Below, piece after piece: positions 34,685-63,112 of a stretch of 64,000 bases of DNA. Source of the DNA: an uncultured bacterium (GTDB lineage Bacteria > Patescibacteriota > Gracilibacteria > Absconditabacterales > Absconditicoccaceae); NCBI GenBank assembly GCA_946408385.1, contig CAMJSB010000003.1, forward strand, positions 62,001 to 126,000, in the 5' to 3' direction. Within the stretch, counting starts at the first letter, position 1; each line of letters starts with the position of its first letter. The notes beneath the pieces are model-generated. The model was not told where the DNA came from. It saw only the letters and a list, made by a program, of their open reading frames with translations, and ran no database searches. The translations under genes were made by a program, and so were the position numbers.

Positions 34685-35563
34685 ATGAAAAAAATTTTCG
34701 TAATTATACTGTTTCTATTCTGATTTTTCCTAATTAATTTCGATAAAGTTAATGCTCTCAGTATAACTGATTTCACTCCAGCACTAGATAAAAAAGTAGC
34801 AAAATTTGAAACTACTCAAGAAAAGGTAGAATGGTTGCAGTCTTTTTCTGATTTACTTAATAGTCCAGCATTTATTCAAGACAAGAATGCCCCACTTTTT
34901 GCTGAGATTAGAAAATACTCTATGAGTATGCTTACTGTATTTCAACATGAATTATGGGAAGAACAAGTAAAAAATGGTAGTTTATGAAGCAGTATTACAG
35001 TTAATAATACACAAACCACTCCAAAAATAAATGGTCTGCCTCATATATCTGATAATTTTTCCAATATTGATGTACAAAAAGTACGTAATGCAATTCTATC
35101 GTGGCATAATTATGAAAGACAATCTTTATGACGTAATGCTTATGCTTATAATCTTGATTTCGAATGAACTGCTACAGTTTGGGCCAATAAGCTTGCTAAT
35201 TCACATAAGACAAGCAATCTTCATTTAAGAAATCCCTGAGATGGATATTACAATTACAATTCTATGCTAGATCGATTTTCAGGTTTATGAGTTAAATTCC
35301 CTAAAAGTATAAATTGATGAGCATCTTTCTCTGAAACTATTGGCTACAATACATATAGATGTTCGAAATCTGATTGTACAGATGATTTAATTACGGCAAT
35401 CAAAAAAACCTGGACATGATTGATATTAAATGAAAAAGCTTCAAATGGTAGCCATTACAAAGCTGCTGTTATGAAATATTTTACACAAATGTGAGTGTGA
35501 ATTGCAATAGATAAATCTAATAATAGGTATTATATAGTCATACATTATGGAGTAAAATTTTAA
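34685..35563 (+). CDS. Secreted CAP/SCP-domain protein
   Basis: A 292-residue secreted protein. The signal peptide is MKKIFVIILFLFGFFLINFDKVNA (cleavage after VNA). The CAP (cysteine-rich secretory/PR-1-like, SCP) domain occupies the C-terminal two thirds. It runs from the first conserved helix VRNAILSWHNYERQSLGRN through YNLDFEGTATVWANKLA and NLHLRNPGDGY (HxR-like), FSETIGYN with the Glu of the family active groove, and NGSHYKAAVMKYFTQMGVGIAID to YYIVIHYG. CAP proteins are extracellular, with lipid-binding or peptidase-like roles. The spacing and TGA-encoded glycines fit. A terminator follows at 35611. Confidence 0.9.
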
Positions 35564-36494: not shown

Positions 36495-39146
36495 TTATTT
36501 CTCGTTTTTGATTGCAGCTTGAGCAGCAGCTAGTCTAGCAACTGGAACTCTGTATGGACTACATGATACGTAATCTAATCCAACTTTATGACAGAATTCA
36601 ATTGTCGTAGGATCTCCACCGTGTTCTCCACAGATTCCTAAGTGGATATCAGGACGAGTAGCTCTTCACATTTCAGCAGCCATCTTAACTAATTTTCCAA
36701 CTCCAACTTGATCAAGTTTCTGGAATGGATCGTTCTCATAGATTTTTTTGTCATAGTATGCAGATAAGAATTTACCAGCATCATCTCTTGAGAATCCGAA
36801 TGTCATTTGAGTAAGATCGTTTGTACCGAATGAGAAGAATTCAGCTTCTTTAGCTATTTCATCAGCAGTTAAAGCAGCTCTTGGAATTTCAATCATTGTA
36901 CCAACGTGGTATTTCATTTCTACTCCTGCATTATTAATAACTTCATCAGCTGTAGCACATACTATATCTTTCACATATTTTAATTCTTTAACCTCTCCTA
37001 CTAATGGAATCATAATTTCTGGTTCAATATTCTTACCAATTTTCTTAGAAACAGCGATAGCAGCCTTGATTACAGCTCTAGTTTGCATCTTTGCAATTTC
37101 AGGATATGTAACTGCAAGACGACATCCTCTGTGTCCCATCATTGGGTTAAATTCGTGAAGTGAAGAAATGATAGCTTTAATTTCTTCTACAGACTTTCCT
37201 TTAGTCTTAGCTAATTCTTCGATATCTTTTTCTTCTGTAGGAACGAATTCATGTAGAGGAGGATCTAGGAAACGGATAGTTACATTGTATCCATCCATAG
37301 CTTCGTATAATTTTTCGAAGTCTCCTTGTTGCATTGGCTCTAATTTATTTAGAGCAGCTTCTCTTTCTTCTACAGTATCAGAACAAATCATTTCTCTGAT
37401 AGCTCCGATTCTATCTGGTTCGAAGAACATGTGTTCAGTTCTACAAAGTCAGATTCCTTCAGCTCCTAATTCTTTAGCTTTAGCGGCATCAGTAGGAGTA
37501 TCAGCATTTGTTCTAACTTTTAATTTTCTATATTTATCAGCCCAAGCCATGATTCTTCAGAAATCTCCTGAAACACTAGCTTCAACTGTTGGAATAGCTC
37601 CATCATAGATATTTCCAGTTGTACCATCGATAGAGATTACATCTCCTTCATGGTATTCTTTTCCTCATAGTTTGAATGTTTTATTTTCTTCATCCATAAC
37701 CATTTCAGTACATCCAGAAACACAACATTTACCCATTCCACGAGCAACTACTGCAGCATGAGATGTTCTACCTCCACGACCAGTTAAGATACCTTGAGAT
37801 GCTTTCATTCCAACGATATCTTCTGGAGATGTTTCTAGTCTAACAAGAATAACTTTTTCTTTTCTTGATGCCCATTCTTCAGCATCTTCAGCAGAGAAAA
37901 CGATTTTTCCGCAAGCAGCACCTGGAGATGCACCTAAAGCTCTACCTACAGGTTCAGCTTCTTTAAGAGCTTTTGGATCAAATCCTGGGTGAAGTAAAGT
38001 ATCTAGATTACGAGGATCAATCATTGCAACAGCTTCTTTTTCTGTTCTCATTCCTTCATCTACTAAATCACAAGCGATTTTAATAGAGGCCTGAGCTGTT
38101 CTTTTTCCATTACGAGTTTGAAGCATGTATAATTTACCGTGCTCAACAGTAAATTCCATATCTTGCATATCTCTATAATGTTTTTCCAAAGTAGCACAAA
38201 CTTCAACGAATTGTTTGAATGCTTCAGGGAATTTTTGTTCCATTTCTGTAATGTGCATAGGAGTACGAACTCATGCAACTACATCTTCTCATTGAGCATT
38301 TGTTAAGAATTCTCCGAAAAGACCTTTTTCTCATGTAGCTGGATCTCTAGTGAAAGCTACTCCAGTACCACAATCGTCTCCCATATTTCCGAATGCCATA
38401 GATTGAACGTTTACGGCAGTTCCCCATGAATATGGAATATCATTATCTCTTCTATAAACATTAGCTCTAGGATTATCCCATGATCTGAATACGGCTTTTA
38501 TAGCTCCCCAAAGTTGTTCGATAGGATCAGAAGGAAAATCTGATCAGATTTTTTCTTTATATTCAGCTTTAAATTGTCTTGCTAATTCTTTAAGGTCGTC
38601 AGCAGTAAGTTCAACATCTAGTTTAACTCCTTTTTCTTCCTTCATTTTATCGATAAGTTGTTCGAAGTATTTCTTTCCTACTTCCATAACTACATCAGAG
38701 TACATTTGGATGAATCTTCTATAACAATCCCAAGCCCATCTTTCATTTCCAGACTTAGTTGCTAATACATTAACAACATCTTCATTTAGTCAAAGATTAA
38801 GGATTGTATCCATCATTCCAGGCATAGAAGCTCTAGCTCCAGAACGAACTGAAACCAAAAGTGGATTCTCTTTGTCTCCAAATTTTTTACCAGTGATTTT
38901 TTCAAGCTTAGCTATATATTCAGTAACTTCAGCTTTGATGTCATCATTGATTTCTCTACCGTCTTCGTAGTATTGAGTACAGGCTTCTGTAGTGATTGTG
39001 AAACCTTGAGGAACAGGCAAACCGATGTTTGTCATCTCTGCAAGGTTGGCACCTTTACCTCCTAGAAGTTCCCTCATGTCGGCGTTTCCTTCACTAAAAA
39101 GGTATACATACTTTTTAGCTTTAGAACTGTTTCAAAAAAGTCACAT
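36495..39146 (-). CDS. ppdK: Pyruvate, phosphate dikinase
   Basis: PPDK interconverts pyruvate, ATP and Pi with PEP, AMP and PPi. The 883-residue protein has the N-terminal ATP-grasp domain starting [28 protein letters not shown], and the swivelling phospho-histidine domain with [17 protein letters not shown] (His near residue 465). The C-terminal PEP-binding barrel has [25 protein letters not shown] and the end [25 protein letters not shown] is strikingly rare in it: a 254-codon stretch at 36669-37430 has about fifteen glycines, none TGA. That stands apart from neighbours such as recA, and could reflect high expression or recent acquisition. Start ATG 39146 adds about eight residues before the usual Lys-Lys-Tyr. 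Confidence 0.96.
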
Positions 39147-39216: not shown

Positions 39217-39285
39217 TTTTCAAGTGATTTTTTAATTAGTTATTGAATTATATATTTTTTAAAGTTTCTAGATAAAATTTATTTA

Positions 39286-42200
39286 TTATAAAACTCTTCC
39301 GTCTTGACCTGATGGTATAAGTTGTTTCATTGAAGTTATTCATCAATATTTTTCCATATCTACTACTCCCATACTAACTCATTGAAATCTTTGAGCTGCA
39401 TCAATATTATCTGGTTGATAGTGAGAATCTAAAACAAAATTATCTTCTGTCAATTCTGGGAATTTTTGCATTAAATATTTTTTAAACTCTTCAGCTCTAG
39501 TTAACGATAAATCTTTATTATATTGTTCTCAATTTCATTTACCTTTATATGTTCGACTAGATACTCATCTTAATAATATTAATGCATTATTGCGAAGCGG
39601 TGTTTTTATATTATTTTCCTTTATCAAATCTGCGAATTTGGCATCAATCTCTGCTTTTATCGCATTTGAATTTCATCTAGAATCAAATGGCCCAGTTATA
39701 TCCGTTGACAATTCCACTCATGTTATTTTAGGATTCTTTTGTATTTTTTCAAAAGTACGTGAAAAATCATCTGGAACTTTTATTATTTTCGACTTTTTAT
39801 CTTCTTCGTCATCAAGTAATCGAGGAAGCAAAAGCAAGGGGATTAACCAGTAAGGTGACACCATTTTTCTACTAGGTAAAATATCAATAATTTCTGTGTT
39901 TTTCTCGATAATAGCTGGCAATCCTCATTTTTTTTCTATTATGGCTAATGCAGTATTTAATTTTTCCTTAACTGCTGGAGTCATCATCTTATCTATAGGA
40001 ACAACTTCTCATTTCTGTACTGGTACAACTTCTCATTTCTGTACTGGTACAACTTCTCATCAACTTGATACAGCTTCTTGCTTCAATCTCAAAACAACGG
40101 ATCAATCTTCTCTTACTATTTTTTCAACTTTTCAATTATATACTTTATTTAATGCTTGATATGATGCTTCTGCCTTTTCAGCTTTTCCTACTCAAAACTC
40201 TATTGCTCTTCATGATTCGAGTATGAACTGTTCAGCTACTTCAACATCTATTTTAGATAATTCTTCACTCCTTACTCTTTCATCTTGAATTTTTAATTTT
40301 TCTTCATATTTTGCTTTCATATCTGGATGTTTTCTAAAGAATTTATCTATACTTAATAATCTTCATTTCCTTATTTCTACATTTCATTTTGGGTATCATC
40401 ATTGTATAAACCTATTTTTTGATATTGTATCTGCAAATTGATCTCTATCTACCAATGACTTATTAAATTGTGTTTCTAAATTTTTGCTTCATTCCTTTCT
40501 TTTTTTAGCTGTCTCTCTCCTTTTTCTTGGAGCTTGAGTTATCTCTTGCTTCAATCTCAAAACAATGGATCAATCTTCTCTTACTATTTTTTCAACTTTT
40601 CAATTGTATACCTCATTTAATGCTTGATATGATGCTTCTGCTTTTTCAGCTTTTTCCACTCAAAACTCTATTGCTCTTCACTTTTCAAGTATAAATTGTT
40701 CAGCTACTTCAACATCTATTTTAGATAATTCTTCACTCCTTACTCTTTCATCTTGAATTTTTAATGCTTCTTCATATTTTGCTTTCATATCTAAATGATT
40801 TCTAAAGAATTTATCTATACTTAAAGGCTCTCCTTTCCTTATTTCTACTATTCATTTTGGATATCATCATTGTATGAATCTGTTTTTTGATATTGTATCT
40901 GCAAGCTGATCTCTATCTACCAAAGATTTCTTGAGTGAAGCATCAATTCCATTTCTTCATCATCTTCAGCAGAAACCAGATTCTAATAAAAACCTTCTAA
41001 TATTTACATCTGTGATGGTTTCTGAAAGTATTCTTACTTTTTTAAACAACTCTCCTTGTGTCAAATTTCATAATTCTCATAATTGTTTATGAGCTTTAAT
41101 TATAGTTCTTAATTGTTGATCTGTAAGATTTGGACACTCTTTCCCTGTAGCCGCCTTGTACTGTAAACTTATTGTTTCTCTTAAGAATTTTAAATTGGAA
41201 GATGTCTGTGAATTCATTATTTTGTCCATTATTTTACTATTTTCTCTAGCCATTCTTTCTGAAATATTGAACCTAGATTTCTTTCAATTAAAGTAACTTG
41301 CATCTCATTCTTTATCTGCTAACCTCTCATTTTTATATTCATTTAATACTCTATCATATTCTGCACTAATGTCTTCTCTTCCTTTTCATCTCACCACTTC
41401 TTTTCAATTCTTCTTCAATACAAAATTCTCTCCTTCCTTCTCTATCTTGTAAACATCTTTACCTATTTTTATTCATTCTGTACTTATAATACCATCAAGA
41501 AATTCGTCTTCAACCTTTGATTGTTCTATTACTTCTCTCAGCTTTACAGCTCATTTATATTCATTCAATACTCTATCATATTCTGCTCTCATATCTTCTC
41601 TTCCTTTTCATCTTGCTACTTCTTTTCAATTCTTCTTCAATACAAAATTCTCTCCTTCCTTCTCTATCTTGTAAACATTATCTCCAAGTTTTACTCCTTC
41701 TTTACTGGATGCCTTTTCAGTAAACTCAGTTCTTCACATTCACTCATCTATTCTTATAGGATTTCAATTCTTATCTAATTGATATTTCTCCTCCAATATT
41801 TTACGGATCTCTGCCTTTTTAGCTGATGAATCATGTGAATTTTTATAAATTTCTTTTCAAGATGGTGTTTTCATCCAACGATATCGCTTTCCACTTGCTT
41901 CATAATCTCTTAAATGTTGGTATTCTTGAATCAATTCTTCAGCACTCATTCTCTCATAATTTTCAGAAAGAATATTTTCATTTACATCCTTTGTGTACTT
42001 TATTTCTTTTTTTTCCATTGAATTTATTTCTTCATTTTTTATTTCTACTTCTTCTCATTTTTCCGCTAACTTTCTCTCAATGTAATTATTATATTTATCA
42101 ATTAATTTTCTATAATATTCATTAAGTCTCTTTCACCATTTATTTTTCATTTCTACTAATTTATTTTTAAGTTTCTTCAAAAATTCTTTTGGTAATTTCA

Positions 42201-45200
42201 TATTCGGTCTTAATGAAAGATTTTTAAATCGACGGTGAACTCACCTAATAAATACTCATGTCTCAAACATTTTTTGTGTCACCCAGTCTAATTTTACATT
42301 ATTGTAATTTTCAGTCCTTGCATTAGAAAATGCTTTTTCAAGATTTCTTTCTACATCTTCTGGTTTATCAGCTCTATCATTTCATTCATCTCTTCTTTCT
42401 CCTGTCTCTGCTCTTCTTTCTCCTGTCTCTGCTCTTCTCTCTCCTGTCTCTGCTCTTCTCTCTCCTGTCTCTGTTCTTCTTTCTCCTGTCTCTGCTCTTC
42501 TCTCTCCTGTCTCTGTTCTTCTTTCTCCCGTCTCTGTTCTTCTTTCTCCCGTCTCTGTTCTTCTTTCTCCCGTCTCTGTTCTCGATGCTGTTCTAGGACT
42601 ATTTGAAGCTACTTTTGACCAATCATACTTTGGAGATTCTCATGCATTTACCCTTCATAAATCTTCCATAGCTTCTTGAAATCTTTTATCACTTCATCCT
42701 GGTTTGTCTGGATGCGTTGATTTTGCTATTTCTCTTTTTGCTGCCTTATAATCAATTTTTCAATTAGCAAGATCATTAAATATATCTTGTACAGTTCTTT
42801 GTCCTCCTGTTTCAGCCCCTGTTTCAGCCCTTGTTTCAGCTCCTGTCTTTCATCTACTATCTAAAATACTTGTATTGTTTGGTAAATCTTTTAATGGAAC
42901 TACCATTCATGTTTTGGTATTACGTACAGCTGGATTTTTTCGATTTTCCGTTCTACAGATTTCAAGTGTTCAATCGTTTAGTTTTTGCTCATATTTTTGC
43001 CAAATTCAAGGTTTTACTGCTCTAAAAGCTATAATCATTCATATTATTTGACATAGTTCTTGTTGTGTTGGAGCTACTAGTGAATGTTCTGTATGTACTT
43101 CTCATGTTTCAGGATCAATTACATCATGTCAAAATGTTAAATTTATTACTTGTTCTGCTGCAAGCATTGATCACATCTCTGTTACTAATTGTGTAGTACA
43201 TCTTGCTGGATCTTGTATGTGTCGTTTTTTGAGTCATTCCATTAAATTTACGGATAATTTACTTTTTCATCATACTCTCATTAACGATTGAGTAAGCTTT
43301 CCTGCAATAGATAATGCTCCCAAAAATGCTGCAGTTTGAACATTTTCTTTAGCTATTGGATTCAAATTTAAATTATCTAGTGATGTTCCTTTAACAGCCG
43401 CATCAACTGTAGTTTTTGCTGCATTAAATCCAGTACCTTCAATCAATAAAGCTGTTGGTATTGATGTTCATAGTGCTACTTTCCCTGCGGTACTTGCTAC
43501 TTTAAATACCCTCTTTACTTGTTTGAATGTTTTTGCAGCTTTAAAAACTTTTAATAATCTAACTGATTTTGATATATTGTTTGCTAATTTTACCCATCTT
43601 GCAGATCTTGCTATCAAGCTTACACCACGTAGAGCTCATGCTACTGCAAGTGTTCATACTCATGCGGTACAAACCCCAACAACAACCATGATTACTATTT
43701 CAGCTAAAATTTCTCATGCAATCTTTGCACTTTCATCACTAAGATTCCAGAATCAATATCATTTTATATCATTGTAAATATCAGCATTTTTTCATGTAAT
43801 TCATCATCATAATTCACCTAAAGCTGACATCAGTCATCATTTAACAATTTGTCATAAATCTCCATATTTTAATTGAATATTTGTTGCTTCAATTGTTTTT
43901 TTATAGTACTCTCTCGCCTTTTCTGGATTTTCGTCTAAATATACAAGAGCCTGTAATACCTGCATTTCAGCCTCTGTTTTATTATCCTTCTGTTCTAATC
44001 TCAATCTTTCTTTATGTCCTTTTGCCATCTCTCATTCTACAGACAAAGAAAGATTATTGACTTGTGTATCTATTGAAACTAGTTGTTCCCTCAAACCATC
44101 CATACATTTCCTTACCTCATCATCTTCTTCTTTTCGATTGCTTGGGAGCCATCATCTTCCTACAAATAATGTAATTAGTGAATCTGTTCATTTCTGTGCT
44201 GAAGCATAAGTGTTATCGTATCGTCATTTAACTTTTTGATTAATGGATCAATCTTGGTTGTAAATCGACATTGAAGTTCGATTCTTAATTTTATCTATGC
44301 ATTTTTGTATTTCTGGATTTTTTACTCATATATCCTCATTTCATTCTATTTCTTCTGCTAAGAAACTAGTTTCTGTTTTATCAAACAAACGACCGAATCA
44401 TCATAAACTTCTAATTGCTGCGATTTGTTGATCTTTATTTCAAAAAAATACATTATTTAATTGTGTATATTGATCACCTTTCGCCGATATCCTTTTTATA
44501 GATTTTCGCTTTGTCCGTATTGGTTCTATAATATTTTTTATTATTCCACTTCTTCATATATTGTCTGTATCTTCTATAGAAGCTCTTCCATTTCTTAATA
44601 ATTTTTTTATTTCTACTAAGTTTTTATCATCGTTATCTAACCATGAATCTCATTCACTTTCTCTATAATTTTCTATCATAGTTTCTAGTAATCACATTCC
44701 ATACAATATTTGCTGCTTGGCCTCTCAACCAATTATAATTTCTTTTGAATCTGCTCAAACTTTCACCTTTTCTGTCTTTGTGAGTGGATCTAATTCTTTT
44801 AGCTTTTCTTTTACTCTAGCTATTAGATAATCTTTATAATCTCATTCATTATTATCTATAAAATCATATAATTTTTTTCATATAAATTTCTCATCTTTTC
44901 GAACTGTCCAACTTACCTCAGAGTCTCCAGCATTTAAATGTAATTCCATATGTCATGATCACCGAAATATTTTAGTAACACTTTCAGGATCAATTTCATA
45001 TCATAATTTTTTTGCATTCTTTAAAAGCTCTATTATCCTTTGTTCTGTTTTTTGACATAAATCTACTTGTTCTCTCGTTGTTAGTTCCTTTTTTGCAGAT
45101 GGTATAGCTTTTTGCATGGATAAAGTCAACTTACTGAGTTTATCGGCATTATATACTGTTTCTGATCCTAAATTTTCCTTTTCTTTCTTTTCTTGGACGT

Positions 45201-45945
45201 ACGCTCTCCACTTTCTTTCTCATGCAGGTATAAGTTTTACTCATTCTCGAATACGTGCTCTAACCTGAAGAGGTTGTCATTCTGTATCTCTCAGAACATA
45301 TGTTTTCAGCTTTGAATCATATGTTAACAAACATGTATATCATCATAATACTGAATGCATCCATGACTTTATGTTCTGATTTTTACATTGACTATAATCT
45401 ATTGTATATGTTGTATTTGGTGTTTTAAACAATCATTCTAATGCTCTATGTATTTTTACTGGATTCGACTCTTTAGTAAAAACAATATTTCACGTTTGCT
45501 TATGTATATCATCTCCTCATTCCATAGTAAACATTGGTGTCTTTGTCTTTGATACTTCTGCAGATTTTTTAACCAGATCTCTACTATCTTGAGTCGACCT
45601 GTTTCTCGCCAATCTTTTTAAAGTTTCATTTTCTGCGTTGTCTATTAGATTTACTATATCATTCACTAGATTTTTCCCATTTTCGAGTATTTTATTTGAA
45701 ATTAAGCTATCTACCCCCTTTTTAAGAGATGCTTGTAATTTTCTTAAAGGTTCCAATGCTCGTGGACCATAATTCATAGTTTTATCTCATTTTATTGCTT
45801 GAATCAATCATTCACACACTATTATTCATGCTTTTGCCTTATCTTTTTCACTCTCAAGTGCTTTTCCCATCCATCATTTTAATTGATTTACTGTTTGATT
45901 TTCGTATTTGAAATTCTTTAGGGATAAAATTGGAGGATTGGCCAT
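39286..45945 (-). CDS. Giant 2219-residue envelope protein with J-domain motif and OmpA-like C-terminus
   Basis: One uninterrupted frame of 2219 codons; I checked every codon for TAA/TAG. No overall homologue is recognised. In order: a helical N-terminal region (1-720) rich in Lys/Glu; a hydrophobic hairpin (about 738-775, VIMVVVGVCTAGVGTLAVAG) followed by basic helices; then a J-domain-like segment with the HPD triad at residue 1078 (IAKSTHPDKPGGSDKRF), which in DnaJ activates Hsp70. Nine copies of a TETGERR-type heptad follow (about 1118-1180), then long charged coiled coil. That coil holds a 222-bp-offset repeat (about 1418-1530) and a near-identical 468-bp-offset duplication (about 1670-1955). 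Next are VPVQKGEV octads, a hydrophobic stretch (YWLIPLLLLPRLL), and an OmpA-like end with NKDLSLTRAEEFKKYL (2139-2153). A scaffold or secretion role is inference only. Confidence 0.85.
40020..40060. repeat. 24-bp tandem repeat (VPVQKGEV octads)
   Basis: Two full and one partial copies of a 24-bp unit, coding strand minus, inside the giant gene. Confidence 0.8.
40081..40930. repeat. Near-identical 468-bp-offset duplication in the giant gene
   Basis: The segments from 40081 and from 40549 (each about 380 bp) align at high identity. Most differences are single substitutions, and the reading frame is preserved. The encoded unit is a helical segment with VEVAEQFI and IREDGS-like motifs. Confidence 0.85.
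41341..41690. repeat. Direct repeat with 222-bp offset in the giant gene
   Basis: The units at 41341-41460 and 41563-41690 are nearly identical, each encoding a Glu/Lys-rich segment with EDISAEYDRVLNEY. Confidence 0.8.
42403..42594. repeat. 21-bp tandem repeat, nine copies (TETGERR)
   Basis: Nine consecutive 21-bp units encode (T/A)-E-T-G-E-R-R. Gly is always GGA, never TGA, unlike the flanks. The copies differ at synonymous or Ala/Thr positions only, which suggests recent slippage expansion. Confidence 0.9.
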
Positions 45946-45964
45946 CTTTATATTTATTAATGAA

Positions 45965-46405
45965 TTAAATATTCTTCAAACTTTCATTTAGTAAATTTTC
46001 TGCACTCATGAGATTCTTCAAATCATTCAAACTTGAGACACTATTTTTTTGTGTATCAAGTTTATCTTTTATCTCTAATACTTTTTCGATATCAATTTCT
46101 ATGTTCTTCTCGCATGTTAAAACTTTTTTATGAATTCTATCCCAAATTTTTTCTCTCTCTGTAGCATCTTTTTCAAGTAATAATCCAATTAATAAAAATG
46201 TTGATTCTTCATCTAGATCCTGGATAGAAAACCTTTTATCATCCTCTAAATGATTATCTAGAATCTTTTGCACTTCTGCTTTCACTTCTGATAAATGCTC
46301 TGGTAACATTGACTCATAATATTTAAATAAAACTACTTCATTATATTCCACACCATCAATTTTTGCAAAAAATATGAAACATTTTTGCGCATTTAAACTA
46401 GACAA
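45965..46405 (-). CDS. Small helical partner gene upstream of the giant protein
   Basis: A 146-residue protein on the same strand, ending 19 bp before the start of the giant gene and probably co-transcribed with it. It is acidic and helical (KYYESMLPEHLSEVKAEVQKILDNHLEDDKRFSI; a coiled-coil stretch IDIEKVLEIKDKLDTQ), with no signal, membrane segment or known domain. The frame opens at a TTG (46405). No in-frame ATG lies near it, so the true start is uncertain. It contains no TGA codon and only two glycines, both GGN. Confidence 0.6.
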   Translation of the reverse strand: MSSLNAQKCFIFFAKIDGVEYNEVVLFKYYESMLPEHLSEVKAEVQKILDNHLEDDKRFSIQDLDEESTFLLIGLLLEKDATEREKIWDRIHKKVLTCEKNIEIDIEKVLEIKDKLDTQKNSVSSLNDLKNLMSAENLLNESLKNI

Positions 46406-46507
46406 ATATTGAAAAATATATATAATATGTCATACATTTTCATTTGCCTTTTTTGGTTGAACGATTATATTCTTATTCAGATTTTTTGGATTTTTTGATA
46501 GAATTTA

Positions 46508-47653
46508 ATGAAAACATTAGCAATAGAAACCAGCTGTGATGATACATCTCTTGCGATTGTAAATAATGACGATTGAATTTTTAATGTAGAGAAAATTGTG
46601 ATGTATTCCCAGATTCAGCAGCATATTCCATATTGATGAGTTTTACCTGAGGTTGCATCACGTTTGCATAGTGAAAAAATTGTGGCATTGATACAAGAAA
46701 TTTGACTTGAAGATATCGAAAAAGTAGATTTTATTTCGGTTACAACAAAACCTGGATTGCCTTGATCTTTGGTGGTTGGTCGTACAGCGGCTCATTTATT
46801 GGCTGAATATTATCATAAACCGTTGGTTGAAGTGAATCATATTCATGGTCATATTTTTTCTATATTATTGGAAAGAAAGATTGAAGATTTGCAATTACCA
46901 CTTGTTATTTTGACGGCATCGTGAGGTCATAATGATTTATATGTTGTAACAATGGAAAAGTCATCCTGAACGAAGTGAAGGATCTTAGGTGATATGCAAG
47001 ATTCTTCGGCTAAAGCCTCAGAATGACAAATTCCCCCTATCTCCCTTGCCAAAGGGGGGCAAACTGAACAAGTTTGACCATTTTATGTGACTAAGATTTG
47101 ATATACTTTAGATGATGCTGCATGAGAGGCCTTTGATAAAGTGTCTAAAATGCTTGGTGGACCATATCCTTGAGGACCATGGATTTCAGCTCAAGCTTTA
47201 AAGTGAAAACATAATGAAAATTTTGGATTTAAAAGAATATTTTTACCTCTGAAAGATGATCAGATTTTTGAGTTTAGTTTTTCATGAATGAAATCGCAGG
47301 TATTACAGTTACTTTCGCATATAGAGAAAGAATGAAAAACTCTGACTGAACAAGATGTTTGTGATATTGCTTATGAATTTCAGGAGGCTACGGTTGAAAC
47401 TTTGTGAAAGCGTTTGATAAAAGCTGCTAAGATGTATGGGGCTAGAACTATTGCTATTGCTTGATGAGTATCTGCGAATAAGAGATTGGCTGAATATGTC
47501 GAAAATGAGGCAAAGGAATGGAATAATTCGGATTATGCAGAGAAAAAATGATTGCATGTAGATTTTGTTCATCCAGTTAAGAATCTGTATTCCACTGATA
47601 ATTGAGCTATGATTTGAGTTGTGGGGTTATTGATGAACAAACAAAGAAAATAA
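46508..47653 (+). CDS. tsaD: tRNA N6-threonylcarbamoyladenosine transferase TsaD, with in-frame repeat insertion
   Basis: TsaD transfers the threonylcarbamoyl group to A37 of ANN-decoding tRNAs with TsaB and TsaE. The 381-residue product has ETSCDDTSLAIV (N-terminal actin-like fold), the metal-binding VNHIHGHI, the nucleotide-binding [33 protein letters not shown], and the C-terminal AGGVSANKRL. About 36 residues (151-186) between [15 protein letters not shown] and FYVTKIGYTLDDA are not family sequence. They are translated from a palindromic repeat (46960-47027) plus a second CCCCC/GGGGG hairpin repeat. The frame stays open because TGA is Gly. Confidence 0.94.
46960..47064. repeat. Palindromic repeat plus hairpin repeat inside tsaD
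   Basis: GTCATCCTGAACG...CTCAGAATGAC (to 47027), then CCCCCTATCTCCCTTGCC-AAAGGGGGG. In frame, it encodes [23 protein letters not shown] and then PPISLAKGGQ. Confidence 0.92.
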
Positions 47654-54317: not shown

Positions 54318-54608
54318 ATGACAAAGAAGGAATATCTAATAAAAATCTTGGAACAACTCGAGCCTATTCGAGATTTAGCTCCTGGTTTAAAAATAGTAGT
54401 AGAACAATGAGCCTTATGAGATGATGTATTGGATACTTTAATCGTCGCTGTGGAATCATGAATTCATGCTGCAAACTCTGAGGCAGCTAAGCAAAAGATG
54501 AAAAAATGATTAGATACTTTACAAAAAATGAAACAAATCGAACAAAATAGTGCAATGCAAGACGAAAAAGAATTAGCTGAATTAGAAAAATTAATAGAAG
54601 ATTTTTAG
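54318..54608 (+). CDS. Small uncharacterised helical protein heading the PG-binding operon
   Basis: A 96-residue protein of unknown family, all alpha-helical by appearance (TKKEYLIKILEQLEPIRDLAPGLKIVVEQGALGDDVLDTLIVAVESGIHAANSEAAKQK), ending in a charged Glu/Lys-rich tail. No signal peptide is visible, so it is probably cytoplasmic. The next gene begins 18 nt after its stop, with a TATAAT in the gap. Its position under a strong promoter just before two large PG-binding proteins suggests a functional link, not proven. Confidence 0.72.
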
Positions 54609-54614
54609 TTCTTT

Positions 54615-54620
54615 TATAAT
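54615..54620 (+). promoter_or_regulatory. TATAAT box 6 nt before the ATG at 54627
   Basis: A perfect -10 hexamer at leaderless distance. The spacing to the ATG is 6 nt. Confidence 0.4.
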
Positions 54621-54626
54621 ATTAGG

Positions 54627-56432
54627 ATGACTACACAAAACACACCAGAAGTAACACAGACAAACACACCAGAATCGCACAATCAACCTGATGAATTATT
54701 GAGGAAATATAATGATATGGTAGATGGTCTTCAATCAAAGAAAGATGGATTAGATATAAAAGAAGAAGAATTAACTGGAGGATTTGCTGAATATTTATTA
54801 ACTAATCAAGAAAGTTTTAATAATTTCAAGAGAAGTGTAGAGACAATGGACAAACACAAACTAAGCTGAGATAACAAAGACTCACTAAAGAGAATTGTTA
54901 GGTTCATCGAGGATATAGATAATCGTAATTCTGAGGAAATGAAAAAAGATTATGAAGAATTTATGAAAAAAATTCAGAATCCTAAGAAACTTAACTCAAT
55001 GAAGATTAGGGAAATTGAAAGAGTTAAATTGTACCTATGAATGCCTACACATAAAGATGACGCATTAAAGGCGTATGAAGAGATGAAAAAGATTGGTCAT
55101 TCACAGGAAAGTTATGAAAAAAATGGAATGAAATCACAAGATCAAGAATTTTTTGGTAAAATATGGGACACTTTGGAAAACACATACTCAACAGATGATG
55201 ATTTTATAAAAATTGATTATCCAGATTTAGCCCAACTAGATTCGAGCGTAGCTGGTTTGAAAAAAATTTGTGGTGAAAACTGGGATGGTAAAAACGAATC
55301 AATCAATATCCCTAAAAAAGAAAACTCCATCGCTAATTCTGAAACTGTAAAATCTAAAGTCATAGAGAAAAACAATCAAAGAATTAGTGAAAATGAGACT
55401 CTAGTAAAAGGTATATCAATAATCGATAAAATTACAGATAAGTCTAAATTTAGCAAACAAGGTGAAACTTTGTATTATAAAGCTGATGAGAGTACTGAAA
55501 AAGTAGAGTTCAATGCGACAAAAATGCAAGATTTATTTAAAACTGAAATTGAGAATGCTGTAAATGGACTAGAATGACTCAAACTTATCAAAGATGAAGA
55601 AAAGGGTGAACTGATTACTAGATGTAATGATGATATATTCAGTAAGTTAAAGTCTGAGTTGTTAGCATCAAGTGATGTAAGAGATGAGACTCCGGCTACA
55701 CCTACTGAAACTGGAGCTGAATCTCAAACAGGAACTGAGACTCAAAATTCATCTTTAGAATATTCTGCAAATAAAGATATAATTAAAATTAAAGATGCAA
55801 ATCTGAAGACAAAAATAGTTGAACTAAAATTCTGTGAATCATTAGACTGAGATGATGTAAAATTTAATATAACTGAAGTAAAAAATTATCTAAGTGGATT
55901 AACTGAGAAGGGCTGGAAAGAATTAAGAAGTCAGCCAAAATTGGCTAAAGAAACATGGACTATCGCAGTCCAAATTGCATTAAATCATTTGAATACAAGC
56001 AGCTGAGAATACAATGGTAAATGTGATGTAGAATGGGTAGATGGAATCCGCTGACCAAGAACTAGAACATGAGTACATTGATTTCAAGAAGCTTGGAATG
56101 CTAAACATAGTGATGATGCTCAAAAAAAATTAAAAGTTGATTGAGCTCCTTGAGCAAAAACTATAGCTGCAATAGTAGAAGCTTTATGAGGAAGTTCTTC
56201 TCCGGAGACTCCTACTGAAACTGAGACACCAACAGAAACATCAACAGAAACTCCAACAACTCAAGAGACACCAGCGGAGACACCGTCAGAGACACCACCA
56301 GAGACACCAACAAATCCAGATGCACCAACAAATCCAGATACACCGACAGAAACTTCTACTGGAACCGAAACTCAAACCGAAGCCCCAACTTCTAGCGCTT
56401 CGGTTACCACAACATGACAACAAACAAGCTAA
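54627..56432 (+). CDS. Large protein with peptidoglycan-binding domain and Thr/Pro-rich tail
   Basis: A 601-residue protein, acidic and helical through residues 1-400, including a coiled-coil-like stretch. Near residues 450-530 is a PG_binding_1-type domain: AVQIALNHLNTSSGEYNGKCDVEWVDGIRGPRTRTGVHGFQEAWN and then DGAPGAKTIAAIVEAL. The C-terminal 80 residues are a tandem ET-P-T-ET repeat rich in Thr, Pro and Glu, ending SASVTTTGQQTS, like cell-wall spanning linkers. No signal peptide is visible at the N-terminus (MTTQNTPEVTQTNTPES), so export would require an unusual signal. The ortholog of the PG-binding domain is repeated in the next gene. Confidence 0.75.
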
Positions 56433-56458
56433 TCAATAACTATAATTAATTTTTAACC

Positions 56459-56464
56459 TATAAT
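56459..56464 (+). promoter_or_regulatory. TATAAT box 9 nt before the ATG at 56474
   Basis: A perfect -10 hexamer between the two PG-binding-domain genes. Confidence 0.35.
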
Positions 56465-56473
56465 AATTAAAAA

Positions 56474-58627
56474 ATGGGAGAGATACAAAATGCTTATGAC
56501 ATCAAAGCAAAATTAGATAGTAAAGACACCGCTAACAGAGACCTGCAAAATCTTTTTAATCAGATAAATGAACTTAAAGATTTTAAAGATTGAACTGCTG
56601 ATATTTCTAATGATCAAATTGATGGCGTTCTTGACTTCCAAAATAAACTTAATGACAACTTAAAAATTGCTGTAGAAGGTCTTAAGGCAAAAGATATTAG
56701 GACTTTGGTGACAGAGCTCTGAAAAATAGAAAATGATACCTCCTTAATATTGAACAACAATGTTAAGAATAGTTTAATAATATTAAAAGATCTTTTACAG
56801 AATACCCTAAACGAAAAACAAGCAAAACCTGATTCATTAAAAGAGTTTGAATGATATATAAATGAAGGAAAATTAAATAAACTGAATAAATTGAATAGTA
56901 AAGAAATAGGTGAAATTGTAAAATTTATTGAAGATGGTGGTTTAGAAGAAGAGGATATTATAATTCTATATAATAAAATGAATGACAGTAAGAGGAATTT
57001 TGTTGGAAGATTTTTATCTACAGATAATGAAAATTTCACAAAAGTTCTAAGTGCTTTACAAAGCGCATCCCAAGAAAAATTGAGTGATGAAAGAACTGCT
57101 ATTGACTCTGAAGTTTCTTTACATTTAGATAAAATATTTAATGGAGGACAAGATGCTGAATCTTTATTAAAGATCCTAAAATCCAATACAAACACAGACA
57201 CTTGGGATGGTAGTGACATTTCAAATATAAGCTTCATAGATAATACAGATAGATCAGCCAGAATTCAACCTAATGATTTTATCAGAAGATTTAATCAAGA
57301 AAATCAAAAAAGAATAAACTGAGCTAAAGAGGAATGAATAAAATTTATTGGAGAAAGCAGCAATAAAATTCAGTTTAATGATGATTGAAAAATCAATCTC
57401 GATAGTTCATGACAGTTTTTAGATGAAATTAAAAATCTCATTATAAACAATGAAGAGCTAAATTCAGACCACTTTAAAGCTGTCCGTGGAAACTGGAAAA
57501 AAGCCTATGATACTGCTGTTGAAGCAGAGGCAAAAAAAGGATGGAAAAATATAGAAAAAAATAGTGAAGAATTTGGAAAACAAACTGAGACATGAATCAA
57601 AGAAATAAATGAATTTTTAGAAAATGATCAGCAATTTCTCAAAATTGAAGGGACTGATTCGAACACTACTATATCATACAACCTAAAAAAAGCAAAGATT
57701 TACCTTAATTCCTTATTAAAAGTTGATGAACAAAATGCTACTCGAAATAATTTTAAAACAAAGACTGGGCCGGAAAGAAAAGCATGGATTGCAGCTGTAC
57801 AAATTGCATTAAATAACCTAACTGGTGTAACAGATGAGAATAAGATTAAAGTAGATGGTATTGATCAACAGCAAACAGAAAATGCTGTTAAGAAGTTCCA
57901 AACAGATAAAAAGCTTGAACCTAAAGATGGTAAACCATGACCTGAAACCATAAAACTTTTACTGAATGCTTTAAATCACTCTTCGACATCTCCCGAAAGT
58001 ATTGACACTAATAATATGAAAGACACAATTGATACCATAGGTTATAAGAATATAGAATTCCCTGGTGATCAGGAAGAATATGGAGTCAATGGCGATGGTT
58101 ATATGCAGTTTTATCAAAAAGGAAATGATGCACGTAATATTTTATGTCAGACTAATGATAACCAATTATTTATGCTTTCTCTTGACACCCCTCGAATAAA
58201 GACAAAATATGAAATTACCAAATCACATAATGATCATAGTGAGCTTACTCCAGGTGAGACTCAGCTCAATGTATGTACTGCTTGAGCTAAAGCTCTGAAT
58301 AGTATAATTAAAGATTCTACGCATACAGAGTTGAAAAATTCTCAATTATCTTTTGTAGAGAAGTCGGGGTTTTATGAATTATTGCTTAATAACGTAACAA
58401 TTTCTATTCCTGATAATTTCTTTGATGAAAAATTTTGTTGATTAACTAAAATGGAAGATAAGTTAATGCTATTTTTATTAGCAAATAAGGTTTCAGAAAT
58501 AAAGGAAAACAATAATGATGCGCAAAATCCTATTGCTATAGAGACTCAGTTACATTCCAGTCACAGCAATCTAATCCCCAACTGAATTGACCGAGATCAA
58601 TTTAAAACTGCTTTTAATTTTACATAG
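56474..58627 (+). CDS. Second large PG-binding-domain protein of the pair
   Basis: A 717-residue acidic protein, mostly helical. Near residues 435-495 is a domain similar to that in the previous gene: AVQIALNNLTGVTDENKIKVDGIDQQQTENAVKKFQTDKKLEPKDGKPGPETIKLL, a PG_binding_1-like unit. Other parts have no recognised family; the N-terminus is GEIQNAYDIKAKLDSKD. The C-terminus (about 510-717) may be a further globular domain (GDGYMQFYQKGNDARNILCQTNDNQLFMLS). The two genes seem to be paralogues with a diverged remainder. The stop codon overlaps the convergent TPR gene by 8 bp. Confidence 0.72.
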
Positions 58628-61390: not shown

Positions 61391-63112
61391 CTATTCTGAA
61401 TCTTCTTCAAATAAATCTTTCAGAATATCTTTTTCATCTTTTTTGGGCTCTTTATCTGAAAGATATGTTTCCAAATATGGTTTTTTTTTCAATAATTTAT
61501 CTACACTTGCTAGTAAATGTGAATAATCTCCAGACTTTGGATAGACATAAGTAATCGGATCTAATAATCATGTTGGACGAATGATTTGTTCTACGACTTC
61601 ATCTGATAAATTCAATTCATACTCTGCCGGAGTGGCAGATAGGAATATTGATTTCGCTCAGGTTTTTATTTTTGATGCTAAATTAGCACGTTGATTTTCT
61701 GCACGAGCTTCTTTATTTATTAACGATTCAGAATGTCATTCTGAGGCTTTAGCCGAAGAATCTTTCGCGTTTTTGTCATTCTGAGGAGCTTGCGACGAAG
61801 AATCTTGTGAATTTCACCTAAGATCCTTTTCACCCAGTTTAGCTGGGCAGGTATTCGTTCAGGATGACGCACTATTCTCAAGTACTTTCAAGTGGGTAGT
61901 AGAAACTAAATCCAAATTATCAGTAGCTTGATCTAGCTTAATTTCATCTAACGATTTCCATCAAAGAGTAGCTTCTAATTCCTCGAAACGTAATGGACGA
62001 TGATCGATAGCGGATGGAAGACGGAATCAATATTTAATCAGATTATTTTTTCTGGCTCTATCTCACTGTGACATCGCATTTAATTGAGGAATTGTCATAT
62101 GAGATTCATCTATAATGAGCAAGAAATCTTTAGGAAAATAATCGAAAATCGTATTTGGAGCCTCACCTGGCAAACGTTTATCAAAATATAATGAATAATT
62201 CTCGATACCATTCACAAATCAAGTTTCACGAATCATACGTAAATCGTATTCTACACGTTTTTTGATTCTCTCTGCCTCCACTAACATTCAGGCTTTTTCA
62301 AATTCTTTTATTCTGAGTTCTTTTTCTAAATCAATTTGCTGAAGTATAGTTTCTAAGTCATTTGTATCCTGTAAATATTGAGTAGCAGGCCAAAGAATAA
62401 CCTGATTAGCCTGAGATTTTAGTTCAAATGTAACTGAATCACGAATTTCAATCCTCTCAATCACATCTTCATCAAAGAAGCAACGATAAACAGATTTTTC
62501 AGTAGAAGAATAAACATCCAATCTCTCTCATTGCAATTCGAACATTCAGGCTTCAATTTTTCCATGAACTGGTTTATATTGCATATGTAATAGTTGATGC
62601 TTTATTTCTTTAAAATCATATGACTGCCCCACTTTGAGCTGAAGCATATTTTCCTGGAAGAATCTACTCTGTCATAAACCATAGAGAGAAGATGCCGAAG
62701 CGACTACAATTACATCATCACGAGAAAGCAGACTCGCCATTGTAGCTAGTCTATACATCTCAATTTCATCGTTAATTGTAGCTTCTTTCTCTATATATGT
62801 TCATGAAGATGGAAGATATGATTCTGGTTGATAATAATCAAAATATGATACAAAATAATGCACTGCATTATTTGGAAAGAATGCTTTAAATTCAGTAGAA
62901 AGCTGAGCTGCTAATGTTTTATTGTGTGAAATTACGAGAGTAGGTCTCTGAACTTTTTGGATAATATTAGCCATGGTAAAAGTCTTTCATGTTCATGTAG
63001 CTCAGAGTAGTGTGATATTTTTCTTTCAATTTTCAAAAGCTTGAACAATCTGATTGATTGCTTTTGGTTGGTCTCATGCTGGTTCGTAATCTGATTTCAA
63101 TTGGAATGGCAT
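61391..63112 (-). CDS. uvrB: Excinuclease ABC subunit B, apparently lacking its C-terminal helicase half
   Basis: UvrB carries the lesion-verification helicase of nucleotide-excision repair. The 573-residue product has Walker A GATGTGKT (37-44), the beta-hairpin [18 protein letters not shown] and [13 protein letters not shown], motif [16 protein letters not shown] (near residue 333) and motif [16 protein letters not shown]. It then continues through [17 protein letters not shown] and ends soon after with [11 protein letters not shown]. Helicase motifs IV-VI and the UVR domain, about 200 residues in ordinary UvrB, are absent. A palindromic repeat (61735-61868, about 45 residues) is inserted in frame before the missing part. 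It may be inactive or an unusual short form. It lies upstream of the TPR gene on the same strand. Confidence 0.92.
61735..61868. repeat. Palindromic repeat inside uvrB
   Basis: Two overlapping family members (starts near 61735 and 61788), in frame, with internal halves CACCCAGTTTAGCTGGG. They encode [18 protein letters not shown]...[22 protein letters not shown]. Confidence 0.9.

Follow-up and report, generated by a model that had tools for sequence, protein, structure and literature searches.

Introduction

What is a 2219-codon gene that combines a DnaJ-type HPD motif, a membrane hairpin and an OmpA-like end doing in the genome of a very small bacterium? The gene lies in a window of 64,000 nucleotides (positions 62,001 to 126,000 of contig CAMJSB010000003.1, assembly GCA_946408385.1) from an uncultured member of the Absconditicoccaceae. 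This bacterium is of the SR1/Absconditabacteria type, which reads UGA as glycine and is thought to live attached to other bacteria. According to the original prediction, the protein is a single envelope scaffold whose HPD segment recruits Hsp70 to a wall-spanning structure and whose C-terminus binds peptidoglycan. We first checked whether the gene and its motifs are real, then analyzed the HPD segment and the C-terminus, and finally compared the locus with its relatives in 49 genomes of the order. Genomes and fetched loci are designated below by G and L numbers, respectively.

Results

The giant gene and its motifs

On the minus strand and under genetic code 25, the frame 39286–45987 is open for 2233 codons and contains 113 in-frame TGA, whereas no long ORF exists there under code 11, which gives only fragments. 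From the ATG at 45945 the protein is exactly 2219 aa, the length originally proposed (no strand had been given). This start is the likelier one, as it leaves a gap of about 20 nt to the upstream gene, as in the other cassettes described below, while the ATG at 45987 would overlap that gene by 22 nt. Residues are numbered here from 45987; 14 must be subtracted for the 2219-aa version. The observation behind the original prediction is thus confirmed: it is one gene, and all the motifs that were named are present.

The conserved N-terminal module, hereafter module A, spans aa 60–840 (43468–45810) and shows 26–34% identity to four related giants (L021, L022, L023, and L024). It contains a hydrophobic hairpin (aa 753–787, 43627–43731; 739–773 from the second ATG), which is followed by a basic stretch and has a conserved place in the module. 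An extension of module A (aa 841–1049, 42841–43467) is shared with L021 only. The J-domain-like core follows (aa 1066–1114, 42646–42792), with the HPD motif at aa 1092–1094 (42706–42714; residue 1078 from the second ATG). Further on are nine tandem (T/A)ETGERR heptads (aa 1137–1199, 42391–42579; 1123–1185 from the second ATG) and two units of about 49 aa (EGxKxGxxVYKIEKEGENFVLKKNGKEV..., aa 1430–1552, 41332–41700), read directly from the translation. A module of about 120 aa, A1 (aa 1558–1678, 40954–41316), is 41–55% identical in at least eight other giants. Tandem units of about 128 aa (SLVDRDQxADTISKNRFIQGGYPKG..., aa 1688–1971, 40075–40926) have relatives in L033 and L036. The OmpA-like domain (aa 2093–2210, 39358–39711) follows, with RAEEFKKYL near the C-terminus. 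All these features are on the minus strand.

Pfam, NCBIfam and PHROGs searches gave nothing useful for the giant beyond a weak OmpA match. PDB sequence searches with the N-terminal modules, module A1 and the type B partner described below returned no significant match, a first scan of named genomes found nothing, and neither an Rfam family nor a terminator-like site was found in the cassette. Use of the recoded codon differs strongly between conserved and giant genes: only 14% of the Gly codons of the neighboring PPDK gene are TGA, against 65% in the giant.

The HPD segment is a J-derived core without a normal helix I

To determine whether the HPD segment is related to J-domains, we searched the 71-aa segment around HPD against the 49 genomes of the order. 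Ten matches other than itself were listed, and nine of them fall, in register, on the genomes' own DnaJ J-domain, located independently with the Pfam model. In the PDB, the top three sequence matches are Sis1-type J-domains (E about 0.07). Against a profile of 29 J-domains of the order the segment scores 17.6 bits, a score reached by 0 of 5000 shuffles that keep HPD and by 2 of 5000 that keep HPDKPGG in place. Of 19 other HPD-containing segments in the fetched loci, one is a real DnaJ (120 bits) and the rest score 7.5 or less; the second HPD of the giant (aa 1887) scores like background. The local sequence HPDKPGGSDKRFQE resembles HPDRGGSKEKFQE of this genome's DnaJ. Helix II, HPD, GG and the Phe of helix III are shared with DnaJ, and the segment is closest to DnaJ of the same order, but it has no canonical helix I and no G/F, zinc or C-terminal domains.

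The absence of helices II and III around HPD had been named beforehand as a result that would disprove a J-domain. A single-sequence AlphaFold model of an 86-aa fragment shows three short helices, at 17–25, 31–42 and 52–65, with HPD at 43–45 between the last two and a pLDDT of 81–88 in most of the helices. DnaJ sequences were left out of the alignment because they would force the answer. However, the predicted helix I is short and reads VQDIFNDLANG instead of the usual YxxLGV-type sequence. The Pfam J-domain model does not match the segment at E 10, and a Pfam family search of the genome itself did not find it either. A Foldseek search with this single-sequence model gave no significant match, the best J-domain hits having E values of 4–7 and a TM of about 0.3. 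A J-domain match at 0.08 elsewhere in the genome (G000:C5) is not a J-domain by reading. Among the 49 genomes, the J-core is found in this one giant only. We conclude that it is a J-derived core with a partial predicted fold, homologous to J-domains from helix II to helix III only.

The C-terminus is predicted to fold as an OmpA-like domain

Pfam OmpA matches the C-terminal fragment with 4.8e-4 and 20.8 bits, below its cut-off of 27.2. A single-sequence AlphaFold model of the last 172 aa (moderate confidence, pLDDT 55, pTM 0.59) has the order b-a-b-a-b-b, and Foldseek returns OmpA-like domains first (7.7e-5 to A. baumannii OmpA), followed by MotB and Pal. The YNxxLSxxRA motif is present, though five extra residues lie before it. 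In A. baumannii OmpA, Asp271 and Arg286 bind diaminopimelate (PMC5974059). The Arg is present here in LSLTRA, but the Asp is not evident: by eye, without structural superposition, its position appears to read Ser in GVSSRT. The stretch SPYWLIPLLLLPRLL before the domain, a proposed membrane segment, is not a clear membrane span by hydropathy, being too short and polar. In sequence searches the C-terminus alone matched antibody light chains in the PDB by chance and unrelated proteins in the order, so that only the fold search supports OmpA.

The giant is half of a two-gene cassette

A gene of 114 aa (45965–46309, minus strand) lies directly upstream of the giant. Relatives of the N-terminal 840 residues occur in five other genomes (L021, L022, L023, L024, and L030), and in every case a homologous gene of about 110–117 aa, here called the type A partner, lies directly upstream on the same strand. 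The one in L024 was found by a profile that had not seen it (E 5e-6). In G014, another large ORF (1594 aa) and a small membrane-anchored, DYN-rich protein lie just upstream of the type A cassette (L021:1975–7146).

A second partner family (type B) precedes other giants. Its profile matches 42 of the 49 genomes of the order, up to four times each, and 8 genomes of other families in a class-wide sample. Two complete genomes of the family (G001 and G002) have no type B partner, so the system is not essential to the group. In 53 of 54 type B loci examined a same-strand ORF follows, of up to 2788 aa, and the partner-plus-large-ORF layout is found at all six type A loci. In 41 pairs with a large ORF of 300 aa or more, the gap is −42 to 60 nt and none of the 41 carriers has a hydrophobic N-terminal signal; none was seen in the giant studied here either. 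As the giants were found partly by similarity to this one, and large ORFs were chosen as neighbors, these counts describe the layout and are not a blind test. Homology between type A and type B partners, and between N-terminal modules A and B, was tested and not detected. A third kind of small upstream gene (type C; L033:7376–7657 and L036:9319–9642), weakly alike between the two loci, precedes giants that share the SLVDRDQ unit.

The window holds a second cassette on the plus strand (54318–58627). Its type B partner (54318–54608, profile hit 1.8e-18) is followed by a 601-aa carrier with a weak PG_binding_1 match (54627–56432) and a 717-aa second carrier with PG_binding_1 (56474–58627, Pfam 2.5e-10), neither with a signal peptide. 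Related pairs are found in L103 and L107. The window also encodes a CAP-domain protein with an N-terminal signal-like sequence, likely secreted (34685–35563, plus strand).

Sister giants carry a zeta toxin (L028, Pfam 3.9e-11; L032 shares that region), an HATPase domain (L035, 4e-13) and a calcineurin-like phosphoesterase (L082). Both zeta giants are followed within 18–41 nt by an HD_4-domain gene (L028:7405–8232, minus strand; L032:11125–11976, plus strand), which is placed like an immunity gene. No known toxin domain was found in the giant studied here, and no gene fits in the 140 bp between its stop and PPDK. A module A1 match interrupted by TAG and TAA (L034, G036:C18:830–1087) is probably a decayed giant.

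Different cassettes occupy one exact chromosomal point

The cassette lies between PPDK (36495–39146, minus strand) and TsaD (46508–47653, plus strand), both identified with Pfam. We compared this site in three close relatives (G035, G039, and G040), in which the two genes have the same place. In G035 and G039, the site holds type B giants that share only module A1 with this one, while PPDK is 95–99% and TsaD about 83% identical. One of these giants ends in a zeta toxin and is followed by an HD-domain gene. In G035 an extra 106-aa gene lies between TsaD and the partner (L122/L028:17137–17457, minus strand). In G040 the site is empty and the flanking genes are 169 bp apart; a shorter, 807-aa type A giant with its partner lies elsewhere in this genome (L030:980–3403, minus strand). 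When the empty site was aligned to the three occupied ones, the left homology stopped at position 269–280 and the right homology began at 283 in all three. Relative to G040, the cassette extends from 39233 to 46442.

Most partners share a C-terminal tail

Most type B partners end in L-[DE]-x-hydrophobic-[LI]-x-[ND]-[IFL] at the very C-terminus. The partner of this giant, of the unrelated type A, ends in LNESLKNI, which scores above all but one of the other 565 C-termini in the fetched loci. The type A partner of L030 also ranks high, but the other four type A partners do not unless shifted. Five short type B paralogues lack the tail (L078:1771–3718, also L097, L098, L099, and L100). They sit beside a T2SSE (pilus-type) ATPase gene, near RecX and RNase HII, in five of eight species of the genus. 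This hints at a link to a pilus-type machine, nothing more.

Discussion

Our results only partly support the original interpretation. A single giant code-25 gene, a J-type HPD core of DnaJ ancestry and a predicted OmpA-like fold at the C-terminus are supported. A working J-domain is not shown, wall binding by the C-terminus is no more than a possibility suggested by the predicted fold, and we found no evidence for a wall-spanning structure. The upstream partner gene, the family of related cassettes and the swap site had been missed, and they change the reading from a single envelope scaffold to a member of a polymorphic, partner-linked giant-protein system.

We propose, with confidence no better than even, that the giant is the carrier half of a cassette that works like an LXG/Lap pair. 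Our analysis establishes the partner gene directly 5′ of the giant, a conserved partner and N-terminal module with unrelated downstream parts, different giants at one exact point in close relatives, and a J-type core and OmpA-like end in this copy. The rest is inference, including any binding, export or toxicity. In this view the partner would bind the N-terminal module and, by its C-terminal tail, deliver the giant to a Sec-independent exporter. The downstream modules would be exchangeable cargo acting at the cell surface or in the attached host bacterium, and the OmpA-like end would hold the protein at a cell wall. The J-core would recruit an Hsp70, stimulation of which is likewise inferred, to keep a 245-kDa protein export-competent or to act on the target. 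The cell's own DnaK is the most likely candidate, because the core resembles that lineage's own DnaJ most. We consider DnaK recruitment during export most likely, with action on host Hsp70, as HopI1 does in plants (PMC4617103), as the main alternative.

LXG clusters of Bacillota (type VIIb secretion) have Lap genes 5′, a conserved N-terminal targeting region, variable C-terminal cargo and immunity genes 3′ (PMC10730906). Here, no LXG or WXG100 family matched partner or giant in Pfam or NCBIfam, the N-terminal module is about 800 aa instead of about 200, there is one partner and not two or three, the phylum differs, and no immunity gene follows this giant. As in polymorphic toxin systems, the family has a conserved N-terminus with exchangeable C-terminal toxin domains. 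HopI1, a type III effector of Pseudomonas syringae, also carries a J-domain next to a disordered repeat region on a multi-part protein and recruits Hsp70 (PMC4617103). The giant is five times larger, its J-core lies in the middle and lacks a normal helix I, and its delivery and Hsp70 binding are inferred by analogy.

A serious rival, though a tentative one, is a surface scaffold or adhesin of the bacterium itself, with the hairpin in the membrane, the OmpA-like end on its own wall, the long repeats as a spacer and a J-core that only helps assembly. Variation at the locus would then reflect host switching and not toxin polymorphism. Giant membrane proteins are reported as enriched in Vampirococcus lugosii and as surface-targeted in Strigamonas methylophilicida (PMC8080830, PMC13059738), both of the same group and with proteins above 1500 aa. 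The hairpin, the OmpA-like fold, the PG-binding domains of other carriers and the lack of an immunity gene agree with this view. However, the giant has no N-terminal signal or adhesion domain, whereas the reported proteins are described by adhesion domains and signal or membrane regions, sister cassettes at the same site carry enzymes or toxins, and the proposed C-terminal membrane segment is too short and polar by hydropathy. In the papers searched, within the limits of an open-access library, we found no description of partner genes or of the swap site.

It is also possible, but doubtful, that the HPD segment is a chance resemblance or a dead remnant and that Hsp70 plays no part. The lack of a Pfam or significant Foldseek match, the unusual helix I and the single occurrence among 49 genomes point this way, while the in-register DnaJ matches, the shuffling results, the Sis1-type PDB matches and the helices flanking HPD argue against it.

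Another reading, which we consider unlikely, is a previously undescribed delivery system of Absconditabacteria, in which dedicated partners with a C-terminal docking tail would feed giant, modular, site-swapped effectors to a type IV pilus/type II-like ATPase, with a J-domain effector among the cargo that would take over Hsp70 of the attached host.

It is unlikely that the small acidic upstream gene is an antitoxin or regulator, despite a position as in many toxin-antitoxin pairs, since one partner family serves cargo of unrelated kinds and sizes (334–2788 aa), including PG-binding proteins, the zeta giants have a separate 3′ HD gene, and no DNA-binding or antitoxin family matched. Equally unlikely are mobile or phage-derived polyvalent proteins, which multidomain giants and a precise gain at one site recall, since no significant PHROG match was found in the three giants scanned, the cassettes occur in 42 of 49 genomes beside housekeeping neighbors, and no integrase was noticed between the flanks.

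The finding is more interesting as a swappable cassette than as a single J-domain scaffold. How episymbiotic and predatory CPR bacteria attack or feed on their hosts is largely unknown, and their giant proteins have been named mainly as adhesins. A recurrent partner-plus-giant cassette, present in most species of the order and with exchangeable cargo including a zeta toxin, gives a concrete, testable candidate for that machinery and a profile with which to find all its members. A J-type core inside one of them would be a rare bacterial case of Hsp70 recruitment by a giant envelope or effector protein.
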